NCBI RefSeq assembly: GCF_000949135.2
Contig: NZ_JTAN02000001.1
Coordinates: forward strand, 124,001-188,000
Direction of reading: 5' to 3'
DNA: 64,000 nt
Source of the DNA: Burkholderia sp. USMB20
Lineage (GTDB): Bacteria > Pseudomonadota > Gammaproteobacteria > Burkholderiales > Burkholderiaceae
The position numbers and the translations under genes are program-made. Below, piece after piece: positions 11,275-29,167 of the stretch. Within the stretch, counting starts at the first letter, position 1. Each line of letters opens with the position of its first letter. Under the pieces are notes generated by a model. That model did not search any database. It worked only from the letters and a program-made list of their open reading frames with translations, and was not told the DNA's origin.

Positions 11275-12705
11275 ATGCAGGCTTCACTCGTTCCTCTCGA
11301 CACGTTGAGGGAGCATATTGCGCGGGCGGTCGCATCAGCCAAGGCCTATGAAATTCCCGACGCATGTATCCGCCTGGGGATTCAACAGGCGGTCGAAGAA
11401 AGCGACGCACCGGAAGCTTTCAACAGCAAGCGGCTGTACGTCCGGCGCCGCATCCTCACCTGGAGCGAGAAAGCCCTCCTCGACTTGGCAGCGCGGGTGC
11501 TGCGCGAGTACCCATCGGAGGATCTCGCGGAGGCGGTGAGCGAGATGACGGTCCATGCAGAACACCGAATAAGCGAACTGGTCCGGCGTGATGTGCTCAA
11601 GGCCATGAACCACTTGGCATCCCTGTTCGGCGAACTGCCATTGCTTAACTGCCTCAGCGAGGTATTCGGTGTCTCGGTCATCCGTGACGATCCGGATGGA
11701 CTGCTCGGTCGCGCCAGTCTGCAAGGGCAAATAGTCCAGCACTGCCTGGACAACGACGACTGGTCGCACGAAGAATTGCTGACCCGATGCGGCGCACTGA
11801 CGTGCAGCCAGACGCGCTTCTTCGAGCTGCTGGCCAAGCTTCTGCACCCCATGACACGCCGCGACGTGGAGCAGACGGAGTTGGCCACCGCAATTAGCGC
11901 AGCGTTAAGGCGGGACGGCTTCACGGTTCGGCAGACCGGCGTCGAGTCCGGGTACGCCCTCTACGGCGTGGTCCGGTCGCAGGCTGGTGTTGCCGGAGCG
12001 ATGAAGAACCTGATCTTCGCGTCCATCGGCGAAAAGCCGGAGCTGGTTTTTCGCGACGCGGTCAATAACGACGTCGAGATCGTCAAGCATGCCGACAAAG
12101 TGCTCGTCTTCAATCGGCCCTTGCCGAGTTCGGGCCTCCTGCTCTGGAAAGATCTGCGGGACTGGTATGCCGAAATGTACGGCATCGCCGACCCCGGCAG
12201 CGCGAAGGATCAGCTATTCCGACGGCTTCGCCAGGCCGTCCTCAGTGCCCGCTCTGCGGGGGAGTTAGCGGTGTTTCAAGGCTACTACGAGCGCTACGGT
12301 GTTTCGCTTGGCGACCGGTTGCCGGCTCTCATCCCGCAGGTCTATGTACACTACGACCCATACACCCGGCGCCAGCGCGGCGATGAGCTGTTCCTGGCGC
12401 GCCAGCGCATGGACTTTCTGCTGATGCTGGAGCAAGGTGTGCGCATCGTGATTGAGATTGATGGGCGCCATCACTATGCAGTGCAGGATTCTTTGGCGCC
12501 GGGTCGGTTCATCGCGAACGCCCAGCGATACGCAGAGATGGTAGCGGAGGACCGTCGCCTACGGCTGATGGGATACGAAGTCTATCGCTTCGGTGGGCAT
12601 GAATTCCTCGACGTCGACCTTGAACACCGCAAGGTCGGCCCGCACGCACTGCAATCCGTCGCCGAGTTCTTCGATAGGTTGTTGGCTAGGCATGGCGTCC
12701 GGTGA
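11275..12705 (+). CDS. AbiJ-like N-terminal domain with C-terminal PD-(D/E)XK-type nuclease domain, putative defence protein
   Basis: 476 aa. The first ~110 residues (YVRRRILTWSEKALLDLAAR, then HRISELVRRDVLKAM) resemble the AbiJ-NTD group found in abortive-infection proteins. The C-terminal part has a nuclease-like core: Asp380 in RMDFLLMLE, then Glu394-x-Asp396 in IVIEIDGRHHY, as in DUF559/Vsr-like PD-(D/E)XK folds. The natural reading is a cytoplasmic sensor-nuclease that acts on phage infection (inference). The ATG at 11275 has GGAGAAG upstream. It converges with the TcmP gene at 12844, with a 138-bp gap. The AbiJ assignment is from pattern memory; the nuclease core is clearer. Confidence 0.65.
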   Translation: MQASLVPLDTLREHIARAVASAKAYEIPDACIRLGIQQAVEESDAPEAFNSKRLYVRRRILTWSEKALLDLAARVLREYPSEDLAEAVSEMTVHAEHRISELVRRDVLKAMNHLASLFGELPLLNCLSEVFGVSVIRDDPDGLLGRASLQGQIVQHCLDNDDWSHEELLTRCGALTCSQTRFFELLAKLLHPMTRRDVEQTELATAISAALRRDGFTVRQTGVESGYALYGVVRSQAGVAGAMKNLIFASIGEKPELVFRDAVNNDVEIVKHADKVLVFNRPLPSSGLLLWKDLRDWYAEMYGIADPGSAKDQLFRRLRQAVLSARSAGELAVFQGYYERYGVSLGDRLPALIPQVYVHYDPYTRRQRGDELFLARQRMDFLLMLEQGVRIVIEIDGRHHYAVQDSLAPGRFIANAQRYAEMVAEDRRLRLMGYEVYRFGGHEFLDVDLEHRKVGPHALQSVAEFFDRLLARHGVR

Positions 12706-12843
12706 TTGGCGTCAAGCATCCGATCGACGAGAGTCCGCAAGCCCTTATCGTCACACTGCCGCACAAGCCCACCAGCGTGCGCCGTACGCTGGATGGATTC
12801 CAGTAGGCGTCAGCTTTGCAGCCGGCTGCGGACAGCTCTGGCG

Positions 12844-13668
12844 TCAAAAGAGACTTCGTGTTTCCAGCTGACATGCTTCACGCCACAACTTATCCGCGAG
12901 CGGGTGTCGAGCAATAAGGCATAGCCAATACATGGTCGATTCCTTGCTGTTCCGGACCGGGTACATCGTGTCACAAACGTGCATCCCCGCCTTGCTCACC
13001 AGGGTTCTCCAGTGCCCGACGAACGCATCCCGCATTGCATGCTTGGAGCTCTGTTTCTTCACAACGTAACGCCAGCCGGGAGCGAAGTTATCCAGCGGCG
13101 AGTGGCCCGCTTCAAGGCCCGCCGCAATGTTGCGTTGGATATCGCCAGTGCTGAGATGAACCACGATGTCCATCGTGGGCTTGGTGGCGAGCTTCTCGAT
13201 GATAGAGAAATGCAGATGTCCCGCGTTGAACGGATCGAGCAGTGCGAGATGGAAGCCACGGTCGTTGAGCTGCGGCAAGACCCAGTCAACGGTTTCATCA
13301 GCACGACCGGCTTTGGACTTGAGCGGCACACCGTGCGTGCGCAACCGTGCATCGCACGCGGCGAGGAATTCCGGATTCGCGTCGGCGATGAAAAAGTCCG
13401 AAAAAGCCCCCCGTTTCTGCTGAGCGATTTGCCACGCGGCGAGCGGCCCACCGTCCTGAAACGTGTCGGTATGTTTGATCTTGACGCGGCCGGTTCCGGC
13501 GAAGAGGTCGATGTATGTGCGCTGGCTCGTGAATTTCTGTCGTGCAGCCCAGGACGCATCGATGTATCGCTTGATGATCCGATGTTTCTCCTCCGTCACC
13601 CAGCGCCCCACTACCATGGCCGGGAGTCCGTCGAGCGGGTCAGGTACAACCTTTTCCTCATCTTTCAC
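12844..13668 (-). CDS. tcmP: Three-Cys-motif partner protein TcmP (short form)
   Basis: 274 aa. TcmP proteins are methyltransferase-fold partners encoded beside three-Cys-motif (Gp37/Gp68, DUF5131) proteins, and their biochemical role is not established. Visible features are a SAM-type motif, TYIDLFAGTGRVK, a downstream FHLALLDPFNAGHLHF, and a conserved entry segment PAMVVGRWVTEEK. I preferred the GTG at 13666-13668 because GGGGGAA lies 4 nt upstream. A longer GTG start at 13749 would leave only 46 bp for the divergent promoter of the three-Cys gene. With that gene and a second TcmP it forms a bidirectional three-gene unit. Confidence 0.82.
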   Translation of the reverse strand: MKDEEKVVPDPLDGLPAMVVGRWVTEEKHRIIKRYIDASWAARQKFTSQRTYIDLFAGTGRVKIKHTDTFQDGGPLAAWQIAQQKRGAFSDFFIADANPEFLAACDARLRTHGVPLKSKAGRADETVDWVLPQLNDRGFHLALLDPFNAGHLHFSIIEKLATKPTMDIVVHLSTGDIQRNIAAGLEAGHSPLDNFAPGWRYVVKKQSSKHAMRDAFVGHWRTLVSKAGMHVCDTMYPVRNSKESTMYWLCLIARHPLADKLWREACQLETRSLF

Positions 13669-13761
13669 GTGTTCCCCCGTATGCGTCGCTGATCGAGCGC
13701 CTTTCCTGACTCTCGCATGGCACTGCCCATCCCGCTCCTTTTTCGGCACATCGGAGAAGGG

Positions 13762-13767
13762 TACAAT
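13762..13767 (+). promoter_or_regulatory. Possible -10 element for the three-Cys-motif gene
   Basis: TACAAT, 28 bp before the ATG at 13796. No clear -35 element was identified. It lies within the divergent gap shared with the short tcmP. Confidence 0.35.
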
Positions 13768-13795
13768 AACGCGTTAGCTCATTCACGCGCAGGCA

Positions 13796-14653
13796 ATGGG
13801 AAAAGATTCTCGCATCGAGTGGACGCATCATACCTTCAACCCCTGGTGGGGTTGTGTCAAGGTATCGGCGGCCTGCGATCACTGCTACGCGGAGACGTGG
13901 GCAAAACGCCTCGGAGAAGGACTATGGGGCCCCCACACCCCGAGACGCTTTTTCAGCGACGCCCACTGGAAAGAACCTCTCAAATGGGATAAGGACGCTG
14001 CCAAGGAAAAGGTCCGCAGACGTGTATTCTGCGCGTCGATGGCCGATGTGTTTGAGAACCGCCCCGACTTGGTTGCTGAGCGTCGGCGGTTGCTTGACCT
14101 TATCGCCCAGACGCCAAACCTCGACTGGCTGCTCCTCACGAAGCGAATCCACCTGGTCCGCAAGCAATTGCCCAAAGGATACGATTTCCCGAAAAACGTC
14201 TGGCTTGGAACGACGGTCGAAGACCAGGCGACGGCACACAAGAGAATCAAGCACCTATTGGAATTCTCATCGCCCGCCGTGAGATTCCTCTCCTGCGAAC
14301 CGCTTCTGTCGGCCGTCGACCTTTCGCCGTATCTGGTACGGAACGACAAAGGCAACCGTGTAGACTGGGTAATCGCTGGAGGCGAGTCCGGCCCGCAGGC
14401 GCGCCCGATGGACCCGGCTTGGCCCGCGGCTTTGCAGCGTCAATGTGCTCGAGCGAAAGTGCCGTTCCACTTCAAGCAATGGGGACATTGGGCGCCTGTC
14501 GACCAAGTGACTGACGTCCTGAAAAAAAACACCCCCATCCGGGTTATCCGGCAGGACGGCACCGAAGTCTCCGTCGCGGCTATCGGCAAAGGCAAGGCGG
14601 GAAGAGTTCTGGCCGGCAAACACTGGGATCAATTTCCGCGCGTTGTCGTTTAG
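13796..14653 (+). CDS. Three-Cys-motif protein (phage Gp37/Gp68 family, DUF5131)
   Basis: 285 aa. It starts SRIEWTHHTFNPWWGC, and the three conserved cysteines are Cys20, Cys27 and Cys30 (C-x6-C-x2-C, ending HCYAE), resembling a radical-SAM-like or metal-binding cluster. Further family motifs are FCASMADVFE, LTKR, VWLGTTVEDQ, FLSCEPLL and WVIAGGESG. The family occurs in phages and in genomic islands, typically with a TcmP partner. The reaction is unknown. It is divergent from one tcmP and 30 bp upstream of another. Confidence 0.9.
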   Translation: MGKDSRIEWTHHTFNPWWGCVKVSAACDHCYAETWAKRLGEGLWGPHTPRRFFSDAHWKEPLKWDKDAAKEKVRRRVFCASMADVFENRPDLVAERRRLLDLIAQTPNLDWLLLTKRIHLVRKQLPKGYDFPKNVWLGTTVEDQATAHKRIKHLLEFSSPAVRFLSCEPLLSAVDLSPYLVRNDKGNRVDWVIAGGESGPQARPMDPAWPAALQRQCARAKVPFHFKQWGHWAPVDQVTDVLKKNTPIRVIRQDGTEVSVAAIGKGKAGRVLAGKHWDQFPRVVV

Positions 14654-14683
14654 TTCGCTCAATCTATCCCGAAGGTCCCCACC

Positions 14684-15955
14684 TTGGCAAAACGTCACTA
14701 CGATTGGACCAACGGTCCAGCTGAGCTCGAACCGCACAGCCTGACGAAACACCAGGTACTTGTTGACTATCTGATTCGCTATTTCCAGCAACGCCTGCTC
14801 AACGCCCGTGGACGCGACCGCTTCCGCATCACCTTGGTTGATGGCTTCTGCGGTGGTGGGCGATATCAGGTGAATGGAACGGGAGAACTTGTACTGGGTT
14901 CGCCTTTGCGCCTGCTACAGGCTGTAAAAGAGGCGTCGTTCAAGATAAATGAGGACCGCCCGAAAGCTATTCTGTTCGATGTGCGATACGTCTTCATCGA
15001 CAAGGACAAGAAGGCGCTCGGACATCTGCGTGAAGTCTTGCGTCAGGAGGGCTACGAGCGGGAAATCGGCGACACCATTCACATCATGCATGCGGAGTTC
15101 GGTGCGGCAGTCGACGAAGTTCTCGCCCGCGTCGCTCAGCATACGCCTCGCTCTGGCACCGCGCTGTTCTTCCTCGATCAATACGGTTATGCAGAGGTAC
15201 CAGCAACACTGATCCGCAAGATCTTCGCCAGTGCCCGCGACGCGGAAGTCGTTCTGACCTTTCATGTGTCGTCGTTCGCGACGTACACGAATGACGAGCT
15301 TGCCAGAAAAATTTCGTCAACCTTGCAAGTCGACATCTTCAAACGTTTGGGCGGCAGGTCAATCGACGAAATCAAACAGAACGAAGCGGACTGGCGAAGG
15401 TTCATTCAGGCCGCCCTCTACGAAGCTCTGGTCGACGGCTGTGGGGCAGGCTTTTTTACCCCCTTCTTCATTCGCGGTACGGGCGCGGGCCACGGTGAAT
15501 ATTGGCTTGTACATCTGTCCCAGCATCACCGGGCTCAGGACGTTATGAAGCAGGTTCACTGGCAGCACAGCAATCACTTCGTCCACTACGGTGGCGCCGG
15601 CCTCGACATGCTTGCCCCTCAGACTATGGGTTTCCTGCAAGATTTCGATGGAGGCTTCAGGTTCGATGACGTTGCGCGTGCGAAGTCGGACAAGGAACTC
15701 GTCGGTCAACTCGCAAGACGGATCTTCGACCAAACCAATCCCAAACCATTCTCCTTGGTCTTCTCGGAAACGTGTAATGGCTCCCCTGCGACGGCATCAA
15801 TGTATAAGGATGCACTGGCCATTCTGATATCGGAAGGAGAAGCAACGGTGCGTTCGGCGGATGGAAAACCTCGATATCGCGCGCGATATATGCGCGACAC
15901 CGATGTAGTAGACAAGCCGAAACAGTTCAAACTGTTCCTCGGGAACAACCTGTAG
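14684..15955 (+). CDS. tcmP: Three-Cys-motif partner protein TcmP (long form)
   Basis: 423 aa, the usual size for the family. A SAM-binding-like motif, ITLVDGFCGGGRYQ, lies near residues 49-62, and an FFLDQYGYAEVP acceptor-like motif lies near 162-173. The central TFHVSSFATYTNDE and the C-terminal half, which probably binds the partner or a nucleic acid, are family features. The start is a TTG at 14684 with GAAGG upstream. An operon with the three-Cys gene is likely. That two different TcmPs flank one three-Cys protein is unusual. Confidence 0.87.
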   Translation: MAKRHYDWTNGPAELEPHSLTKHQVLVDYLIRYFQQRLLNARGRDRFRITLVDGFCGGGRYQVNGTGELVLGSPLRLLQAVKEASFKINEDRPKAILFDVRYVFIDKDKKALGHLREVLRQEGYEREIGDTIHIMHAEFGAAVDEVLARVAQHTPRSGTALFFLDQYGYAEVPATLIRKIFASARDAEVVLTFHVSSFATYTNDELARKISSTLQVDIFKRLGGRSIDEIKQNEADWRRFIQAALYEALVDGCGAGFFTPFFIRGTGAGHGEYWLVHLSQHHRAQDVMKQVHWQHSNHFVHYGGAGLDMLAPQTMGFLQDFDGGFRFDDVARAKSDKELVGQLARRIFDQTNPKPFSLVFSETCNGSPATASMYKDALAILISEGEATVRSADGKPRYRARYMRDTDVVDKPKQFKLFLGNNL

Positions 15956-20311: not shown

Positions 20312-20833
20312 CTACTCCGATGTAGGGGGGACACCCTGCATCGCAGCCGAAACGAGGGCGCGAGAATCAACATACGCGTCCATGCTTTGGCTTCTGAGAA
20401 CGGCCATACACTGGAGAAAGAACGTGAGCGAGAAGTCTCCAGCCGACAGATGCGAGATCATCGTCTTTACCGTGGTGCTCGCTCCTACAACCGCAAGTCG
20501 GTGCAGCAATTCGTTTGGGGTAATCCACGGTTGCTGCGCTAGCTCTGCCGCTAGAACGGCCTGCGCACGGGCCTCCCAGGTACCTTGCGGTGCTAGCGCC
20601 TCAGCCCATAAGGTTGGAGGATGTGCCCCTGTTGCATGAATGATCTGAAGGAGCAAAGTGAACTTGACGGAGCCGCGCGCGACACGCGCGATTAGCGGGC
20701 GCTCGTCTTCGTGAACGCCGATCGCAGCCAGCGCTTCGATTAGTTCTCCGTAGCTGCAATCCTCTCGAGCTAGCGCGACCCGGATTACACGGGAAGCCAA
20801 ACCTGCCCAGGACATATCCGTCTCGCCGCTCAC
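20312..20833 (-). CDS. DUF6471 protein with two tandem domains
   Basis: 173 aa made of two related halves: residues ~8-70 (WAGLASRVIRVALAREDCSY, then ELIEALAAIGVHE and RVARGSVKFTLLLQIIHATG) and ~86-150 (WEARAQAVLAAELAQQPWIT, then LLHRLAVVGAS and HLSAGDFSLTFFLQCMAVL). DUF6471 resembles a minimal HTH of the kind found in small regulators of mobile elements. Duplication in one chain is notable, since the domain is often single. Role unknown; DNA binding is an inference from fold resemblance. Confidence 0.75.
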   Translation of the reverse strand: MSGETDMSWAGLASRVIRVALAREDCSYGELIEALAAIGVHEDERPLIARVARGSVKFTLLLQIIHATGAHPPTLWAEALAPQGTWEARAQAVLAAELAQQPWITPNELLHRLAVVGASTTVKTMISHLSAGDFSLTFFLQCMAVLRSQSMDAYVDSRALVSAAMQGVPPTSE

Positions 20834-21700
20834 GGGGCTCTTGAAATTTGAAGGTTTCCGACTAAATTAAACTGTGACGAAAGCCTCACTTTCGATCACT
20901 TCGCGGAACGCGGGAAGGCCAACCATCTCAGCAGCGGCCCACCACTCTGCCGCCGCGACGCCCCCACAAAAAATCAGAATACTACAAGGCCAGCCGCACA
21001 ACTGCAGGGTGGCAGCCGCAACAAAGCACTGCATTGGCACAGAAACGCGGTATACGCCGCCGATTAAGCGCCAACAGGCCGACAAGCGAACAGATGCTTG
21101 ACGGCCGCAGCAATGACATGGCACTATCGGACCCGCCCTAATAGGGTCGGGTAGACAATATTCTATTTTAAGTTATACATGCTCGTCAAGTAGCTGGATG
21201 CGGTTCGTTCCGCCGCCCCATCAATCGAAAGAGGATACTAGCCTTACGAATACCTGAGCGAACTCACAGAAAAAACGCCCAAGGATGCGGGTCCTTGGGC
21301 GTTCATTCGGTGCGCCCCCGAAAAGGCCCACCTGTGCTACTTACGCGTGCGCAGGATGCCATAGACCGGGAGGCGTTGTCAAGACACGTCTGTACGAAAC
21401 CCATTTATGGCATAGAACTATGGCAAAGAACTCCGCAGTGCCTTGTGGCACTTGCCCTCACGCGCGTCAAAATCCGCGCGAATTACCCCAGCCTTCTTGG
21501 GCAAGACCATATAAGCGTCCCTCTTCGGATGAAGTCACGTCGAAGTCCAGCGCCGATACGCCCAGCCAGTTCCCTGGGGTAACCGTCGCCGCTCTCCGCC
21601 GGCTCGCCTCAGCGCCGCGCACGCTTCCGCGGCATCCGCGCGACATCCTCGGTTGCGCCGTCGATCCAGCACTCGCCCGATGTGTGCGTGGAGTTTGACA
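20834..21700. other. Gap between the DUF6471 gene and the transposition operon
   Basis: No convincing gene. A minus-strand frame at 20867-21124 (85 codons) is Cys/Trp-rich, and only its last 15 residues look protein-like. The stretch 21140-21180 is AT-rich and could serve promoters in either direction. A strong hairpin lies at 21275-21302. The 21300-21700 part must carry the promoter of the tnsC-tniQ-tniQ-tnsA-tnsB operon. Confidence 0.45.
21270..21302 (-). terminator. Rho-independent terminator, minus-strand orientation
   Basis: Perfect 11-bp stem, ACGCCCAAGGA (21275-21285) with TCCTTGGGCGT (21292-21302), 6-nt loop. On the minus strand it is followed by TTTTTTCTG, so it terminates leftward transcription. 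No minus-strand gene was found to its right, so it may be the remnant of a lost gene or may insulate the operon. Confidence 0.65.
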
Positions 21701-23023
21701 ATGGACCGCAACCTCACCTCTCGGATGTCTACGCCAACCGTTCGTAACGGAGCTTTACCCGATGACGGCAATCCGCTTCTCGGGAACATACCTCCAGTCC
21801 CCTCTGTGCAGGAAGCCATGCACATTGTGGCCGAGAGCTACTTGGATCACGACCTGACCGGGTTATCCGATTCGGAGATCGTGGTTCGGCAATCCAGGCA
21901 TGCGATTGTTCCCAATTCCCAGCTTGCGGGCATCATTGTCCATTTGATTACGCTAGTCCGCGACTCATATCGCGACAGAGATCTGCGTACATTTGAATAT
22001 CGAAATCACGTACTAGCCACAAACAACTTTCTGCATCAACGAATAGTCGCCGCTCGAAAATCGATACCTAGTTGTTTTGGTATTGCGCCCTTCGCGAAAT
22101 CAAGGGGGTTAGTTGCGGCAATCCCAGCATATATGGGAAGAACCGCTCTTTGCGATTCGATCGAGTCGCTTCTCAAACGTGAACTGGTCAGCGCTCGAGT
22201 TGCCGTTGGAGATAGCCTCGCTGAATATCCCCAGCTTCGAGTATTACGAGTGCAGTGGCCAATTGGGGGCGAAGTGAGCGATTTCGTGCATAATTTTATT
22301 GGTGCATTCGATAGCGCACTCAACACTGACTATATAAATGCAGCACGCGTCCCGCTGTTTCGCAACCGGGACGGGGTGCCGGCGATTTGCTCATTAGGTA
22401 CAGCCGCCCATCTTGGCTTACTGATCGTAGAACGCATAAACATCGAAAACGTGAGTCCTCTGGCGGCCGATCTTACGTGGAATGCGATTGCCCAGTTCAC
22501 ACGAACGACTGGCATTCCCGTACTGTGCCTCCCCTCCCCAGGAGCAGCAGCGCTCTCACTCACAAAATTATCGGGCTCAGTCAGTGATCTAACTTCATCT
22601 GGCGTAATTGAAATTACGCGGTCGCCCAACGCTGCTAATTCGCATTGGGTCGCTGTCTGCGAAACACAGTTCGACGCCACGCTAGGTGTTGTAGATGTCG
22701 GACCGATGCCGGCCTGGTTCCCGGAAGCAGCTTATGAATTAACGCTCGGTTATCCGGGTCTTTTGTCAAAAGCATTAACCTACATCGCTCAGCTTCTTAT
22801 TCGCATGAATGTTTCGACCTTCGACCAGAAGATGTTTAAATCAAATGGAAAGAGCGCCCTTGCGATTGATCTGCCACACATCGAAGCAGTTAGAACTATC
22901 AGAAAGCTGGACAAAAATTCTCAAAGACCGGTTAGGTTCAAACCGTCCAGTCTCTTGCGTCATGGCGACTGGCTCTCGTTCGAAGAGCTTTTTCCATCGC
23001 ATCTCATGCCCGAACCGTTGTGA
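21701..23023 (+). CDS. tnsC: TnsC-like AAA+ transposition regulator with degenerate Walker motifs
   Basis: 440 aa. TnsC is the ATPase that links target selection (TniQ/TnsD) to the TnsAB transposase. The layout matches: an N-terminal region (30-130), then YPQLRVLRVQWPIGGEVSDF, matching the TnsC pattern QLVWLKxDCPxDGS, then FIGAFDSALNTDY, the Walker-B-like LGLLIVERIN, and FTRTTGIPVLCLPSPGA in place of NTIGIPVxxxGT. Where the P-loop should be there is IPAYMGRTAL: the first Gly is lost and Lys is replaced by Arg. The Walker B Asp-Glu is Glu-Arg. ATP hydrolysis is therefore doubtful. The ATG at 21701 has GGAG 8 nt upstream. First gene of the operon. Confidence 0.75.
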   Translation: MDRNLTSRMSTPTVRNGALPDDGNPLLGNIPPVPSVQEAMHIVAESYLDHDLTGLSDSEIVVRQSRHAIVPNSQLAGIIVHLITLVRDSYRDRDLRTFEYRNHVLATNNFLHQRIVAARKSIPSCFGIAPFAKSRGLVAAIPAYMGRTALCDSIESLLKRELVSARVAVGDSLAEYPQLRVLRVQWPIGGEVSDFVHNFIGAFDSALNTDYINAARVPLFRNRDGVPAICSLGTAAHLGLLIVERINIENVSPLAADLTWNAIAQFTRTTGIPVLCLPSPGAAALSLTKLSGSVSDLTSSGVIEITRSPNAANSHWVAVCETQFDATLGVVDVGPMPAWFPEAAYELTLGYPGLLSKALTYIAQLLIRMNVSTFDQKMFKSNGKSALAIDLPHIEAVRTIRKLDKNSQRPVRFKPSSLLRHGDWLSFEELFPSHLMPEPL

Positions 23024-23040
23024 CACGTGGGGAGAACATC

Positions 23041-24015
23041 ATGTTTCGAACGCTTTACGCATCAATACCATACGAAACGCCATTCAGCATAATGACGGCA
23101 CTCGTCAACACGACAAGGGATCGGAAAATTCGATCTGTCGCGAGACAGGCCGTTCGCCGCGGCCCGAAGTTATTGCAGACGTGCCCGTGCCGTCTTACGC
23201 GATTCTGCGCCTTGACCGACAATTTCTACGGAGAGGTTCGCCAAGTGCTGACGGAGCGGACGCTTTACCCACTCTATTTCGGCTGTATGTCGAAAGCGTC
23301 GACGCATCGATTAGAGTCACAGGTCTGCGACGGTGCCCGGAGTCGCTCATGCGGCGCAACGCTGCCGGTCCAATTTCACTCCGCAAATCGTTACGGAATT
23401 GAATGCCCGGAGTGTAGCGAACACGCCAATCTGGCTATTGGGCGGCGATGTTCGCTATCGTTCCACTGCATTCCACTACAGACTCGGTGTCCGATGCACG
23501 AATGTCGGTATCGACTTGCAGATGCATGTAGTTCAAAAGAATTCCAGATGCTTGCATTTCCAGATACTTTGCGGACCCGCAACAGCGTTCGGCTAAGTGA
23601 AACGTTGTTTGGATTTCTGTGTTCGACAACGCCTCGCTGCCAAGTTGATACGATTATATCATTACTCCACGAGCGCGGTTACATGGCTGAAAACGGCAGA
23701 GTCAAGCGCGCCGCATTGTCGAAGGATTTTGAAGCCGTCCATTCACATGGATTCGAGGATATTCGACTGAACACGTGGGTAACATCTGGCAGCATGATTG
23801 TGCACATGCTCAAATGCATCACACACCCCGAAGTCTGTCCGCATCCAGTCGAAATTGCACTACTAAAAATAGCACTTTCGGAGATCGAATATACGCCCAA
23901 GCAGATGCGCACGAAACCTGGCACCCCCGTTCAAACAACGGGACAGTTCGACCGCCATGTGGCATCGCCACGTTGTCGGCCGAAGAAGGCCAAAGGCTCG
24001 CTCATACCGGGGTAG
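23041..24015 (+). CDS. tniQ: TniQ-family target-selection protein (first copy)
   Basis: 324 aa. The N-terminus IPYETPFSIMTALVNTTRDR follows the TniQ pattern (P-x-E-S-x-x-S). A zinc-binding set, CPEC near residues 119-122 and CPMH near 149-152, matches the TniQ Cys/His motif. TniQ/TnsD proteins recognise the target and recruit TnsC. The ATG at 23041 follows GGGGAG, 17 bp after the tnsC stop. The C-terminal ~130 residues differ from the second copy. The start at 23020 would overlap the tnsC stop and has no ribosome site. Confidence 0.72.
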   Translation: MFRTLYASIPYETPFSIMTALVNTTRDRKIRSVARQAVRRGPKLLQTCPCRLTRFCALTDNFYGEVRQVLTERTLYPLYFGCMSKASTHRLESQVCDGARSRSCGATLPVQFHSANRYGIECPECSEHANLAIGRRCSLSFHCIPLQTRCPMHECRYRLADACSSKEFQMLAFPDTLRTRNSVRLSETLFGFLCSTTPRCQVDTIISLLHERGYMAENGRVKRAALSKDFEAVHSHGFEDIRLNTWVTSGSMIVHMLKCITHPEVCPHPVEIALLKIALSEIEYTPKQMRTKPGTPVQTTGQFDRHVASPRCRPKKAKGSLIPG

Positions 24016-24131: not shown

Positions 24132-25712
24132 ATGAAATCTCAAATTTTGATAAAACACGGGATGTTGTCACTATCGTCGATTTGCCCTGGAGAAGTATTT
24201 GCGGCGTATATATATAGGCAACATCACCATCCTGTTTCCGGCCTAAGCAGGCGACTTGGCGGCTCCGAACCGCTGTCATGGCTACTTCCGAACGGAATTG
24301 AGGACCAGGTCAATGTTCTGACTGAATTTGTCGGCTCGATAGATCGCGTGATCGATAACAACACCCTCCTTCCGGGGTACAGTCGTTTTCTATCAGAGGA
24401 AGATGGCCAACGACTTCGCCTTCATCATTTGGGCACCGCATATCCGGGGATCGTAGCAACTGTCGGACTCAATACACACGGACGCCCAGGCCAAGCCTGG
24501 AGCCCTGGCGTCTGCGACCAATGCCTAAATGAAGACCGCAGCGTCTGCGGAGACGCTTTCTGGCGTCGCGATTTCTTATTATCTGGCGTTCGATGGTGCA
24601 CGCGCCATCACAGGCCCATTCAATCTCTTTGTCCGTCTTGTCTCTATAGACTTCCATTCACCAAAAGATTTTCTGGACCAAGCAACAGCTGTGTCTGCGG
24701 GCGCGCCCTGATCTCTCGTCCGCGCAATAGCGACTTTGAGGACTTAGAACTTGATTTGTCGCGTGGATGGACAAGGATGCTCGATCCTACGTTTTCGCCG
24801 TATACGCGAGGATCTGAAATTGCAGCTTTGACTCGTGCAAAGGCCATCAGCCTTGGACTAGCTAATTCACGCACCGTCGAGTGGAAAAATTTCCAAGATT
24901 ACTTCGATCACCCAATATTGAAGGCATTCGGAACAGACATTGCATTTCCGTTCCGCAATGAAACCACCAGAGACATGATACGTGGTAAGAGATCTATTCG
25001 AAATCCAATTCACGCTCTGTTTCTGCTCATCGCCCTATTCGGCAATTGGAATGCTGTTGAGGATGCGATCCAAGGGGCGGCTCAGAATTTTCCGGAGGAT
25101 TCCAGAAAGCGACGCAAGAGAGCGGCCGTTGCCACGAAAGAAAGAAACCGACTGTACTGGAAGAAATACTACTCCGAGTCGATAGCTCTTCTCCCGCAAA
25201 CAAGCCAACTATACGAGAAATTGCGCAAGGATAATCCGGAACTTGGTCACCTGGCTATCCGACGACTCCTTCCGTGTCGGCACGGACTGGCTGCGACCAG
25301 TGAGAGACTCCGGGAACACGGCGCATGCCCGCCGCCAACAGAAGGTGATAAAGAACATGCGGCTGCCAAGGATATTTCGGCTGCACTACACATCGAGCGG
25401 CGATGGCGCGAGCTAATTCAAGCTGGCACAAAGGTTCGTTTGTCGAAGAGCCTCCTGCTTTGGGGCCATCCCCTTCACGGGCAAATTAATGACCCAGCCG
25501 TGCGGGCCCGCTCTCCACGTACGAAAGCGGCACTTGAAAAGTATGTCGAGACGGCGGAGATGCGTCGCCGCCGAGTGATACGCACGGAAGTGCTCGCCGG
25601 CAAGATACCTCGTTATCCGCCCTCGGAGGCCTACAAGATTGATTCGCTGACCGATCGGGAAATCGTCTCGCTCATGGACCATTGCAAATATCTGCGGAGA
25701 AAAACCAAGTGA
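24132..25712 (+). CDS. tniQ: TniQ/TnsD-family target-selection protein (second, longer copy)
   Basis: 526 aa. TniQ-type N-terminus (SLSSICPGEVFAAYIYRQ), then a full zinc-finger region: CDQCLNEDRSVCGDAFWRRD, WCTRHHRPI, LCPSC and a distal CVCG (about residues 133-195). The long C-terminal half (200-526) is rich in basic helices, as in TnsD, which binds attachment-site DNA. It begins 116 bp after the first tniQ and overlaps tnsA by 4 bp (GTGA), so translation is probably coupled. An ATG at 24162 is an alternative start. Basis: family pattern plus neighbours. Confidence 0.8.
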   Translation: MKSQILIKHGMLSLSSICPGEVFAAYIYRQHHHPVSGLSRRLGGSEPLSWLLPNGIEDQVNVLTEFVGSIDRVIDNNTLLPGYSRFLSEEDGQRLRLHHLGTAYPGIVATVGLNTHGRPGQAWSPGVCDQCLNEDRSVCGDAFWRRDFLLSGVRWCTRHHRPIQSLCPSCLYRLPFTKRFSGPSNSCVCGRALISRPRNSDFEDLELDLSRGWTRMLDPTFSPYTRGSEIAALTRAKAISLGLANSRTVEWKNFQDYFDHPILKAFGTDIAFPFRNETTRDMIRGKRSIRNPIHALFLLIALFGNWNAVEDAIQGAAQNFPEDSRKRRKRAAVATKERNRLYWKKYYSESIALLPQTSQLYEKLRKDNPELGHLAIRRLLPCRHGLAATSERLREHGACPPPTEGDKEHAAAKDISAALHIERRWRELIQAGTKVRLSKSLLLWGHPLHGQINDPAVRARSPRTKAALEKYVETAEMRRRRVIRTEVLAGKIPRYPPSEAYKIDSLTDREIVSLMDHCKYLRRKTK

Positions 25713-26503
25713 AGATCCTCGAACTCCCAAAGAAGTTTGCGACACCGAGACATGTCGAAATTCCCATGCGTGACCCGTTCGGCGTCTCCCATGGAGCAAG
25801 TTATGCACCACTCAGAGAAGCGGCAGATATCAGTTCGGCGACGCGCGCCTCCTTCGGCTGCATCAAGGCTCGACGGGTACACGAAGCCCTTTCCCTTAAT
25901 GAGGTGCGAGCTTTATTAGCGTTCAACTTCAATCCATATGTTATCGATATACGCGATCAATATCCAATTTACGATCAGGAACTTTACAATCGCGCCAAAC
26001 TAGAAGGCCTCAGAATGCCAATAAATAGCGTCATGACATGCGACATCGTCTTGACGCTCGTACTCCCTCCTGAATACCGCCTTCATTACCACGGTGTATC
26101 CATCAAGGACGCCCGAGACGAACTTACCCCAAAGGACTGGAATCGGCAGGAGCGAGAGCACGCCAAGTTCCGCGAACGAGGATGGACCTGGGAGTTGCTT
26201 CGCGGCGATCAGTTCACGAAGCGCGCGTTCGGGAACCATGCCCTCATGAAGTCTTGGATTGCAAACCTCGACGTGTGGAGCCTATATGACGAAGCAGATC
26301 ACCTCGCCACGCGACTCAAGCTCCGCTCCCTCCGCGGCACACTGGACGACATTTTGAACCGCCATGCCAGGTACATGGGCATTGAGCTTGATCGAGCGTT
26401 CGAGCTATTCGCGGTCGCGGTCTCCTTCGGCTTTCTCCATATTGACCATAGCGAAGACCTTCGCGTGGATAAGCCGCTGCACCTTGAAAGGTTTACGTCA
26501 TGA
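25709..26503 (+). CDS. tnsA: TnsA-like endonuclease
   Basis: 264 aa from the GTG at 25709 (GGAG upstream; GTGA overlap with the tniQ stop). TnsA cuts the 5' ends of Tn7-like transposons and allows cut-and-paste movement. The catalytic pattern is intact: Glu65 in SLNEVRALLAF, Asp112 in TCDIVLTL and Lys133 in VSIKDARDE, almost the same spacing as E. coli TnsA (Glu63, Asp114, Lys132). The VIDIRDQYPI after the Glu is also a family hallmark. The C-terminal half contains a helical domain expected to contact TnsC. The stop overlaps the tnsB start (ATGA). Confidence 0.88.
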   Translation: MKILELPKKFATPRHVEIPMRDPFGVSHGASYAPLREAADISSATRASFGCIKARRVHEALSLNEVRALLAFNFNPYVIDIRDQYPIYDQELYNRAKLEGLRMPINSVMTCDIVLTLVLPPEYRLHYHGVSIKDARDELTPKDWNRQEREHAKFRERGWTWELLRGDQFTKRAFGNHALMKSWIANLDVWSLYDEADHLATRLKLRSLRGTLDDILNRHARYMGIELDRAFELFAVAVSFGFLHIDHSEDLRVDKPLHLERFTS

Positions 26504-28839
26504 GTAGCACTTCTGCCCCGAAAGATGTCAGGCCTATCGTCGGAGACGACTCGCTGATCGCGCGTTTGCGCGAGTTGCACGACATGGAATGGCCTGCGGG
26601 TCTGCGTCGCTTCACTCCATTCAAATTGGCCGGCAATGACGAAGGAACAGCCTATCGAGCGGTTGCGTGGGATGCGTCCTCTCGCGTTCTCTGTGTTCAA
26701 GTCATAGCGATTGGCCAACCTCCCCCCGCATGCGGGTTGCCGCGTCCCATCGCCTTTGAGACAAATGACGATATGAAGGCATGGTGCTCCCGAGTCATCC
26801 CAATATACGATCGTCTCCGCCCATCGTATATGGACGCGCCGTGGAACGAGGTGCGGAGTAGCGCGTTTAACGGGTTCGCGAGGCGCATGATGCTTATCAA
26901 CGCCCTAGTCATGGTCGACACGACCGGCAGGGGCCTAGAATCGGACTACATCGTGAACGACTACGTGTTCTTCGACTCGCAGTTCCGTAACGAGCGCATC
27001 CGGCAAATCGAGGAAGCAGTCGGCGGTGGCCCGGGATTTAGGGCAGCCACCGACAAATTGTTGACAAAATTCATCTGGTATGGCGGCGACCAACGCGCGA
27101 TGCTGGCTCGAACGGCGGATTGTGGTGGTCCGGACAAGCCACGACCGAAGCCCGCTACCAAGCCTGGGCCACTATCGACCAGGGAACGATTGGCCAAAGC
27201 ACGTGCGATTTCACGAGGCAAAACCTTCGTCAGGAAAGCCAAGCGGACCGATCAAGACCGTAAGTCCAAGATGGTTGAAGCGGTAACCAAAGATTGGGCG
27301 GGGAAAAAGCGTGGTTTAGCATCCGCCCATCGTCGAATGATCAAGCGGCATTTCCTAGAGTGTCGAGCCGATGATAGACCAAGTTACGGCACGCTCTATT
27401 ACCATCTCGACAAATGGATCGCGCCGGAGAATGATTCGGTTGCCGACCGCTATGGTCCAAGAGCAACGGAACAATACATCGCCCCGCGACCAGGTACCTC
27501 GAGCGAAATGACACAAGGCGCCATCGAGATATTGGACGCCGACGGCATGGTTCCCAAGATACCGATCGGCGGAGTGGTCGGTGGCAAACTTGAGCCGATG
27601 GAGATCTGCGTCATCCTATCCGTATCTCGCCTCTCAGGTGGCGTATGGGGTTACGAAATCTTGCTGTCGCGAGAGCGTGCTGCTGGTTACCGTCAATGCC
27701 TCGTCTGGTCACTGCTCTCGATGGCAGACCGCGCAGAGGCACTCGGCCTGGAACCATTACCCGGACTTTTGCACGGCAACTTCGATGGTTTATTTGTTGA
27801 TAATGGCCCCGGCAAAGGCAAGCAAGTGCGAATACCCGTGACCGAATCACTTGATGCCAGCATGTTCAATCCAGGACCTGGCAAACCAGAATACCGGGGT
27901 GTCGGTGAGCGCTTGAACGAAATAATCATCGAGCAACTTGCTGACGAAACCGATCAAGGCTACACCCGCAGAAACAGCGTTTTGGAGCGTGTCAAACGTC
28001 GTGAGCGATCCCGTCAATCCGCCATGCCGTTAGATGATTTCGAGAGAGCTCTGCTAAAAGCCATCGACACCATCAACCTCACGGCTGATCGGTCTCATCT
28101 GCGCACGAAAGAGATGGCGCAACTAGGTGTCGGCATAACTCCACGTGAGCTTCACGAGTATTATCAGAAACTTCGCCGTGGTCAGGCTGCTCGAGTGCGG
28201 AACCCCGAAGAGGTATTCGATGCGTTCCTTCCATGGCATGAAGCGACCTGTGTGCGAGGCCGCGTTCGATACAAGAATGCACGCTATAGCTCTCCCGAGC
28301 TTGTGGAAATTGCGAGGGCCCATGCCCGGCATCCTATAAAGAGGCGTCTAACGGTCGAAATCAAGCGCACCGTCCAGATCTCTCGAACACTCCTCTGTAG
28401 AGGTCCGGACAAAAAGGTCTTTGAAATCGAGATGATTGACGAGGATAAGCGACGTTTCGGCGAGGGCAGTTGGATACAGCTTGAGGCGGCTACTCGCGAT
28501 GAGAATATTCTGAGAAGTGACCTTCAAACGGTACGTGCGAGGAATTCTGGCCGATTGAAAACCACGCAACAGGAACGAATCGACGCAATCGAGCGCGGTC
28601 GCGGCAACAGTTACGCCGGCGCTGTAGGTGCAAGCAAGGCGCAAGCGAGGAAAAGTGGCGCGGCAACTCGTGCGCACGCACTGGACGAAGTTCAGCGGAC
28701 GGCATACAACGTGTCACCGACCACTTCGATAACGACGTCGCCGTCACACCTCGAGCGGGTTACCGCCGATGAAAGCGACGACGATCCATTAGCTGCTGCC
28801 GCTCGGCAAATAGAGGAAGCTTACCTCGGCACTAAGTAA
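26500..28839 (+). CDS. tnsB: TnsB-like DDE transposase
   Basis: 779 aa, within the normal TnsB range. The N-terminal region carries basic and helix-turn-helix-like segments (about 220-310) that should bind the end repeats. The RNase-H-like core has Asp346 (IEILDADG), Asp434 (LFVDNGPGKGKQ) and Glu470 (YRGVGERLNEI), a D-D-35-E spacing. A Mu-type C-terminal beta-barrel region follows (540-660), then a charged tail that may contact TnsC. It overlaps tnsA by 4 bp and is transcribed towards the right end, which lies 280 bp downstream. This is the opposite of Tn7, where tnsA is nearest the end. Confidence 0.88.
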   Translation: MSSTSAPKDVRPIVGDDSLIARLRELHDMEWPAGLRRFTPFKLAGNDEGTAYRAVAWDASSRVLCVQVIAIGQPPPACGLPRPIAFETNDDMKAWCSRVIPIYDRLRPSYMDAPWNEVRSSAFNGFARRMMLINALVMVDTTGRGLESDYIVNDYVFFDSQFRNERIRQIEEAVGGGPGFRAATDKLLTKFIWYGGDQRAMLARTADCGGPDKPRPKPATKPGPLSTRERLAKARAISRGKTFVRKAKRTDQDRKSKMVEAVTKDWAGKKRGLASAHRRMIKRHFLECRADDRPSYGTLYYHLDKWIAPENDSVADRYGPRATEQYIAPRPGTSSEMTQGAIEILDADGMVPKIPIGGVVGGKLEPMEICVILSVSRLSGGVWGYEILLSRERAAGYRQCLVWSLLSMADRAEALGLEPLPGLLHGNFDGLFVDNGPGKGKQVRIPVTESLDASMFNPGPGKPEYRGVGERLNEIIIEQLADETDQGYTRRNSVLERVKRRERSRQSAMPLDDFERALLKAIDTINLTADRSHLRTKEMAQLGVGITPRELHEYYQKLRRGQAARVRNPEEVFDAFLPWHEATCVRGRVRYKNARYSSPELVEIARAHARHPIKRRLTVEIKRTVQISRTLLCRGPDKKVFEIEMIDEDKRRFGEGSWIQLEAATRDENILRSDLQTVRARNSGRLKTTQQERIDAIERGRGNSYAGAVGASKAQARKSGAATRAHALDEVQRTAYNVSPTTSITTSPSHLERVTADESDDDPLAAAARQIEEAYLGTK

Positions 28840-28948
28840 ACGCCGGCCCCGTCCGTACCGCAGCGGCGTTGCGCATCTTTGAATCCGATCGAAACGGGGC
28901 ACTCTGCCCCATTTATGCATGTCCCGTCGGGCTGGCTTCCGTGTGCCG

Positions 28949-28967
28949 TATCCACATCTAATTGAAA
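28949..28967 (+). repeat. TnsB-site-like repeat 1 (distal)
   Basis: TATCCACATCTAATTGAAA, matching the consensus TATCCRYATCTAATYGAAR. It lies 122 bp from repeat 2. Confidence 0.65.
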
Positions 28968-29070
28968 GTCCAATTTCACTTCCTCGGCCGCCTTCCTTCA
29001 TACAATAAGGCGAGTTCCTTTACGTTCATTGGCCCACGGAGACCCTTGCTACATAAGCGTTTCAACACAA

Positions 29071-29089
29071 TATCCGCATCTAATCGAAA
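29071..29089 (+). repeat. TnsB-site-like repeat 2
   Basis: TATCCGCATCTAATCGAAA, 24 bp from repeat 3, a spacing typical of abutting TnsB sites. Confidence 0.72.
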
Positions 29090-29094
29090 AAGCG

Positions 29095-29113
29095 TATCCG
29101 TATCTAATCGAAG
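29095..29113 (+). repeat. TnsB-site-like repeat 3 (terminal)
   Basis: TATCCGTATCTAATCGAAG, ending 6 bp from the terminus at 29119. Confidence 0.72.
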
Positions 29114-29167
29114 ATGACACCGGCACGCGTTCGCCCGGCGCGATCGACACGCCCGCTATTGATTTTT

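Follow-up and report, generated by a model that had tools for sequence, protein, structure and literature searches.

In Tn7-like elements, the ATP cycle of TnsC is the accepted link that couples target recognition to transposase activation and to the avoidance of re-insertion. The window analyzed here, a stretch of 64,000 nucleotides from Burkholderia sp. USMB20, carries a Tn7-like transposition module headed by a tnsC-like gene (21701..23023, + strand) that encodes 440 amino acids and, according to frame reading, profile comparisons, and a motif scan, lacks both Walker A and Walker B. This locus raises the question of whether such a module can choose a target and move with a TnsC protein that has lost its nucleotide site.

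The open reading frame (21653-23023, + strand) has no internal stop, and its likely start is the ATG at 21701, with GGAG upstream. In an alignment with eight ordinary TnsC proteins, the former P-loop position (residues 141-148; 22121..22144, + strand) reads IPAYMGRT, the consensus GxxGxGK[ST] being replaced by I141-PAYMGR-T148 (G to I, G to Y, and K to R). At the position of the Walker B Ile-Asp-Glu (hhhIDE), the same alignment shows Val-Glu-Arg (V243-E-R245; 22427..22435, + strand), with D changed to E and E to R. The absence of canonical Walker A and B residues, claimed in a preliminary description of this DNA, is thus borne out. A pattern scan detected the P-loop and Walker B in none of the four TnsC proteins of the divergent group described below and in all eight comparison proteins, a score that is partly due to choice, since the latter are a small set hand-picked from tblastn hits (three by TnsC and five by TnsA) and are all annotated as ATP-binding proteins or ATPases. 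The "ARR" motif was likewise missing from all four and present in all eight. For one member of the group, the copy on p352-2 of Cupriavidus sp. EM10, the scan took in the first open piece only (352 amino acids). Two fetched loci were left out of the comparison, namely, that of Stenotrophomonas KC1, which is of the same species and in nearly the same place as GA1, and that of P. oryzihabitans, which has no annotated tnsB or tnsC.

The kinship of the window protein with TnsC is real and remote. It matched no Pfam or NCBIfam model at E<=1, and in a phmmer search with this sequence alone, Tn7 TnsC was found at an E value of 0.33, ranking second behind an unrelated chain at 0.18. When a profile of the window and Paraburkholderia TnsC proteins was compared with PDB chains, Tn7 TnsC (7mbw/8glu) came out on top (E 0.0046), and profile-profile comparison gave a probability of 97.3% against four ordinary TnsC proteins and an E value of 6.5e-15 against eight, for which none of 60 column-shuffled decoys was as good. 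On the strength of these comparisons, the window TnsC is a homologue of ordinary TnsC across the core, in agreement with the earlier statement that the body of the protein follows TnsC. The Cupriavidus TnsC matched a set of ten sequences with an E value of 4.7e-5 and the window pair with one of 0.004 (0 of 60 decoys as good both times), but gave no match to the eight ordinary TnsC proteins alone (57 of 60 decoys were equally good) and no PDB match at E<=10. It would thus seem to be tied to ordinary TnsC only indirectly, via the window group and its place in the module.

The window operon has the order C-Q-D-A-B. Q (23020..24015, + strand) is a small TniQ/TnsD-like zinc protein that starts either at GTG 23020, overlapping the tnsC stop and thereby coupling the two genes, or at ATG 23041; it has no Pfam match, and profile comparison aligned it with the N-terminal part of TnsD at an E value of 1.9e-4 and a probability of 48%, which is weaker than for D and B. 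D (24132..25712, + strand; 526 amino acids) is a predicted TnsD/TniQ-like target selector that matched a TnsD profile with an E value of 3.3e-12, while its match to Pfam TniQ (E 2.4e-4) stays under Pfam's cut-off. The tnsA gene (25682..26503, + strand) was recognized through the window and Paraburkholderia pair, which matched PDB TnsA with an E value of 8.5e-6; the window protein itself falls under the TnsA-N cut-off (E 0.0015), which its Paraburkholderia homologue clears. The tnsB gene (26500..28839, + strand) was assigned by a TnsB profile match (E 3.1e-17), and a sequence search of the PDB with its product yielded no TnsB. As the preliminary description had proposed, both proteins keep their catalytic sets, namely, E74, D121, and K142 (E-D-K) in TnsA and D348, D434, and E470 (DDE) in TnsB.

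Downstream of tnsB lie the features of an element end: three 20-bp end repeats that are probable TnsB sites (28947..28966, 29069..29088, and 29093..29112, all + strand) and the right terminus GATGACA (29113..29119, + strand). The terminus is adjoined by CCGGC (29120-29124), a candidate 5-bp duplication. Homology to B. arboris begins at 29131, and from there rightward the DNA matches both this species and B. cenocepacia at an identity of about 90%, so that the window most likely belongs to a Burkholderia replicon. A search of the 64,000 nucleotides for left-end repeats came up empty; the window thus shows the right end alone, and the left end of the USMB20 element should lie outside it. Divergent from tnsC is a DUF6471 gene (20312..20833, - strand), a possible regulator whose counterpart lies beside tnsC in Paraburkholderia as well. 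Likely cargo at 11275-15955 includes genes with matches to AbiJ N-terminal domain 3, DUF5131, and GMT-wHTH, possibly with a function in phage defence.

Relatives of this module are rare in the collections searched. A tblastn search of plasmids with the window TnsC matched 5 of 72,556 records, one of them closely, and the window TnsB matched one record. The Paraburkholderia TnsC retrieved itself and one chance-level match, the Cupriavidus TnsC and TnsB retrieved three Cupriavidus records each, and no relative was found among the genome contigs, viral contigs, and phages scanned. The group analyzed thus consists of the window, a Paraburkholderia element, a Cupriavidus element, and a broken copy on EM10 p352-2, of which only the separate pieces were used. 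The Cupriavidus element is present in C. campinensis MJ1 and on p352-1 of Cupriavidus sp. EM10, and it enters the alignments and trees as a single entry; the starts of the Paraburkholderia and Cupriavidus TnsC proteins were placed near the aligned start and are approximate.

The Paraburkholderia sp. 22B1P module has the order C-Q-A-B, and its products are 41% (TnsC), 43% (Q), 53-54% (TnsA), 51% (TnsB), and 55% (DUF6471) identical to those of the window. Its TnsC reads APVSMGCR at the P-loop and IER at Walker B, and the blocks that are invariant between the two TnsC proteins include ERIN and ELTLGYPxLLSKALT. A TnsD that is 40% identical to that of the window is separated from the module by about 156 kb and lies at the opposite end of the element; two TnsD-like genes were observed at this left end (L008 13951-14910 and 14980-16572), whereas D is inside the operon in the window. 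The Cupriavidus element has the order C-Q-Q-A-B, with a second Q that clears the TnsD cut-off, and EM10 p352-2 holds the frameshifted remnant of such a module (L009 7101-12632). The motif positions of the two Cupriavidus TnsC copies read APLSLDAA/IVG and GPLSMWLE/IVG. Since the loss of the motifs is conserved in Paraburkholderia and Cupriavidus, it is not specific to USMB20, and recent decay in this strain alone is ruled out. Common to the group are the position of tnsC as the first gene in all four copies and the presence of several selector-type proteins per element (two in the window operon, three in Paraburkholderia, and two in MJ1). The TnsB DDE residues are aligned in all four copies, and the TnsA E-D-K residues are kept in the window and Paraburkholderia; in the two Cupriavidus copies, E and K were not found. 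In an alignment at about 25% identity, these Cupriavidus TnsA proteins (L006 14939-15715; L009 9947-10756) keep the Asp and lack the Glu and Lys, and the Cupriavidus elements may have a dead TnsA and perhaps move by copying. Both tnsB and tnsC of EM10 p352-1 match in three pieces, with indels that break the frames. Whether these breaks are real or due to sequencing, this copy may be dead now, and only the MJ1 copy reads through.

The trees of TnsA and TnsB placed the window, Paraburkholderia, and the two Cupriavidus copies on one side of a branch with a support of 100/100. Long branches also come together in the TnsB tree, and in the TnsC tree the four members were grouped at 76/91 only, with very long branches (2.87 and 3.42). 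In the window and Paraburkholderia pair, conservation of TnsC falls below that of TnsA and TnsB, whereas TnsC ranks first among these proteins in five of six ordinary pairs, which indicates that constraint on it is partly relaxed. The frames of both TnsC proteins are unbroken at this level of identity, and the gene is therefore being kept.

Clear signs of past movement emerge from the relatives. The Paraburkholderia element (NZ_AP028998.1 1833837-1998878) has matching ends 165,042 bp apart, which is large for a Tn7-like transposon, and AAACT is present on both sides as a 5-bp duplication. Allowing up to two mismatches, its end-repeat pattern occurs six times on the 2.48-Mb replicon, each time at one of the two ends, and read backwards the same pattern occurs once; the right end reads ATA rather than ACA. 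Terminal TnsB-site repeats, TGT...ACA-like termini, and a 5-bp duplication were also found at the two Cupriavidus insertions. On the operon side, an alignment of the MJ1 and EM10 elements spans 18,315 columns and contains no mismatch and 23 gaps, which, being unaccompanied by mismatches, may stem from sequencing errors. Their left flanks are 84-85% identical, and to the right no blastn match was obtained past the final codons of the interrupted gene. The insertion point in this efflux outer-membrane-protein gene, about nine codons before the stop, is identical to the base in both genomes, and C. metallidurans CH34 has the same gene uninterrupted at this site and with a longer tail. The 3' end of this efflux gene (L006/L007 element end; L034/L035) is a possible attachment site, unlike glmS. 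The duplications differ, with GTGGC on both sides in one genome and ATCGC on both sides in the other, which points to two separate insertions, as a single inherited insertion would not alter both copies of its duplication together. The simple reading would thus be that the MJ1 and EM10 copies are two separate site-specific insertions, and insertion at the same base points to a site-specific selector. Judging from these ends and duplications, elements with a Walker-less TnsC have clearly transposed, and in Cupriavidus they appear to have done so site-specifically.

Taken together, the window probably carries a Tn7-like module of a Burkholderiaceae clade in which a pseudo-ATPase TnsC has permanently lost its nucleotide site and bridges the selectors and TnsAB without an ATP switch. 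This reading is based on sequence, namely, on the conserved loss, the single clade of TnsA and TnsB, the TnsB catalytic residues in all four copies, the TnsA residues in two lineages, the ends, and the past movement; the nucleotide independence of TnsC, its bridging role, and its selector-driven assembly are what we infer from these. The pseudo-ATPase TnsC would connect the TniQ/TnsD-type selectors (Q and D) with the TnsA-TnsB transposase. The selectors, instead of a switch by ATP binding and hydrolysis, would drive its assembly on target DNA, and release and target immunity would depend on different interactions or else be weak. The loss of the site together with insertion at one exact base calls for another source of target discrimination, for which the selector proteins are candidates. 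The wider proposal, that a whole protein-guided Tn7-like clade transposes site-specifically with a TnsC unable to bind or hydrolyse ATP, selector-driven assembly being the sole substitute for the ATP switch credited with enforcing target choice and immunity, is in our view an evenly balanced matter. As described in published work on other TnsC proteins, a Tn7 mutant in the Walker B glutamate is hyperactive and selector independent, the same mutation severely impairs Tn6677, ShCAST, and McCAST (PMC11406308), and ShCAST supplied with a non-hydrolysable ATP analogue makes untargeted insertions (PMC9876797).

One alternative is that the degenerate TnsC depends on an ordinary ATPase TnsC provided in trans from a Tn7-like element on the chromosome, the two forming a mixed ring in which the degenerate protein is a regulatory or dominant subunit. 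Tn7-like elements are described as ubiquitous in Burkholderia (PMC10702557). On the replicons searched, which include neither the main chromosomes of the Paraburkholderia and Cupriavidus hosts nor the remainder of the USMB20 genome, no second TnsC was seen: a profile of four TnsC sequences, applied to five of the six records (all but B. cenocepacia), revealed no convincing ordinary TnsC, its best match being the degenerate Paraburkholderia gene (E 1.8e-6), followed by a 292-amino-acid frame in B. arboris (E 0.0067) and a best Cupriavidus match at 0.43. The P-loop pattern was also absent from the 13 other proteins of three modules. Searches of four records with AAA_22 and TniB returned many ATPases, and the AAA_22 matches listed inside the elements include a 1868-amino-acid frame at W01:1878195. 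Two candidates for an ordinary TnsC inside the elements (L045 and L046) read as ABC-transporter ATPases by their LSGGQ-type signature, and at a third (L047) the 8-sequence TnsC profile matched nothing at E<=1. EM10 p352-1 has a clear TniB-type ATPase (NZ_CP076061.1 1834764-1835267; E 3.4e-20), which would suit a supply in trans; it lies outside the element and belongs to some other transposon, and the best TniB match on the MJ1 replicon reaches an E value of 0.0036 only, in a 947-amino-acid frame. Given how far this clade has diverged in its tns genes, a TnsC from elsewhere would need to accommodate TnsB at an identity of about 20-26%, and we consider this alternative unlikely.

A TnsC that retains ATP binding, and possibly hydrolysis, by means of atypical residues (Lys/Arg and acidic side chains shifted away from the motifs) would be compatible with Gly146, the Arg-Thr at the P-loop end, and the one acidic residue at Walker B in the window, and with the same Gly and Glu in Paraburkholderia; the Lys-Ser/Thr position, however, reads RT, CR, AA, and LE across the four copies and the ARR motif is gone too, which makes such a site rather improbable. 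It is quite improbable that tnsC has become dispensable, with TniQ-type proteins recruiting TnsAB directly and TnsC being a relic with another role, e.g., in regulation. The fast evolution of TnsC, the presence of at least two selector-type proteins per element, and the overlapping stop and start that couple tnsC to Q could be read in this way, but the window and Paraburkholderia proteins retain both an N-terminal NPL...PP stretch and the core, and tnsC heads the module in every copy. Finally, general decay, in which tnsC is or is becoming a pseudogene and the elements are immobile relics, would account for the long TnsC branches, the frameshifted p352-2 copy, and the indels in tnsB and tnsC of EM10 p352-1. 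It is largely refuted, and hence highly improbable, by the open tnsC frames of the window, Paraburkholderia, and MJ1, by the 41% identity with its invariant blocks, and by two separate Cupriavidus insertions with zero mismatches across 18.3 kb.

If the preferred reading of a TnsC that bridges selectors and TnsAB without an ATP switch is true, a clade with targeted movement but no ATP site would permit testing which steps need ATP, might offer a simpler site-specific integration machine, and would mean that the usual ATP switch may be unneeded for choosing a target. AAA+ partners of DDE transposases are found in phage Mu (MuB) and IS21 (IstB). The IS21 regulator is reported to be nucleotide controlled, whereas the nucleotide site is missing in the window TnsC. 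A close parallel is Tn7 TnsC of E. coli (PDB 7mbw, 7mcs, and 8glu), with which the window protein shares its place in a TnsABC-D module, TnsA, TnsB, and TnsD-like partner genes, and a collinear core (window profile 177-397 on TnsC 165-389). It differs in lacking Walker A, Walker B, and ARR, in its length (440 amino acids versus 523 in the solved chain), and in the position of tnsC, which comes first in the window and follows the order A-B-C in the eight comparison loci. A survey of Tn7 dropped TnsC sequences gapped at any Walker position as well as unalignable clusters (PMC10293859), and with such a filter clades of this kind could be missed. No report of a protein-guided, TnsA-bearing clade with a Walker-less TnsC was found in the open-access literature. 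Some type V-K CAST TnsC proteins are described as naturally devoid of the Walker B glutamate or of a typical Walker A (PMC11406308); compared by description only, those systems are CRISPR guided, whereas here TnsA is present and targeting is of the TniQ/TnsD type. A Walker-less TnsC has thus already been noted for some V-K CRISPR transposons, and the protein-guided, TnsA-bearing clade would be the new part. Within the same genus as the window, the metal-resistance island BGImetal is also a Tn7-like element, but its described order is tnsA-tnsB-tnsC-tniQ and its TnsC was sought with the ATPase model PF13401 (PMC10702557).
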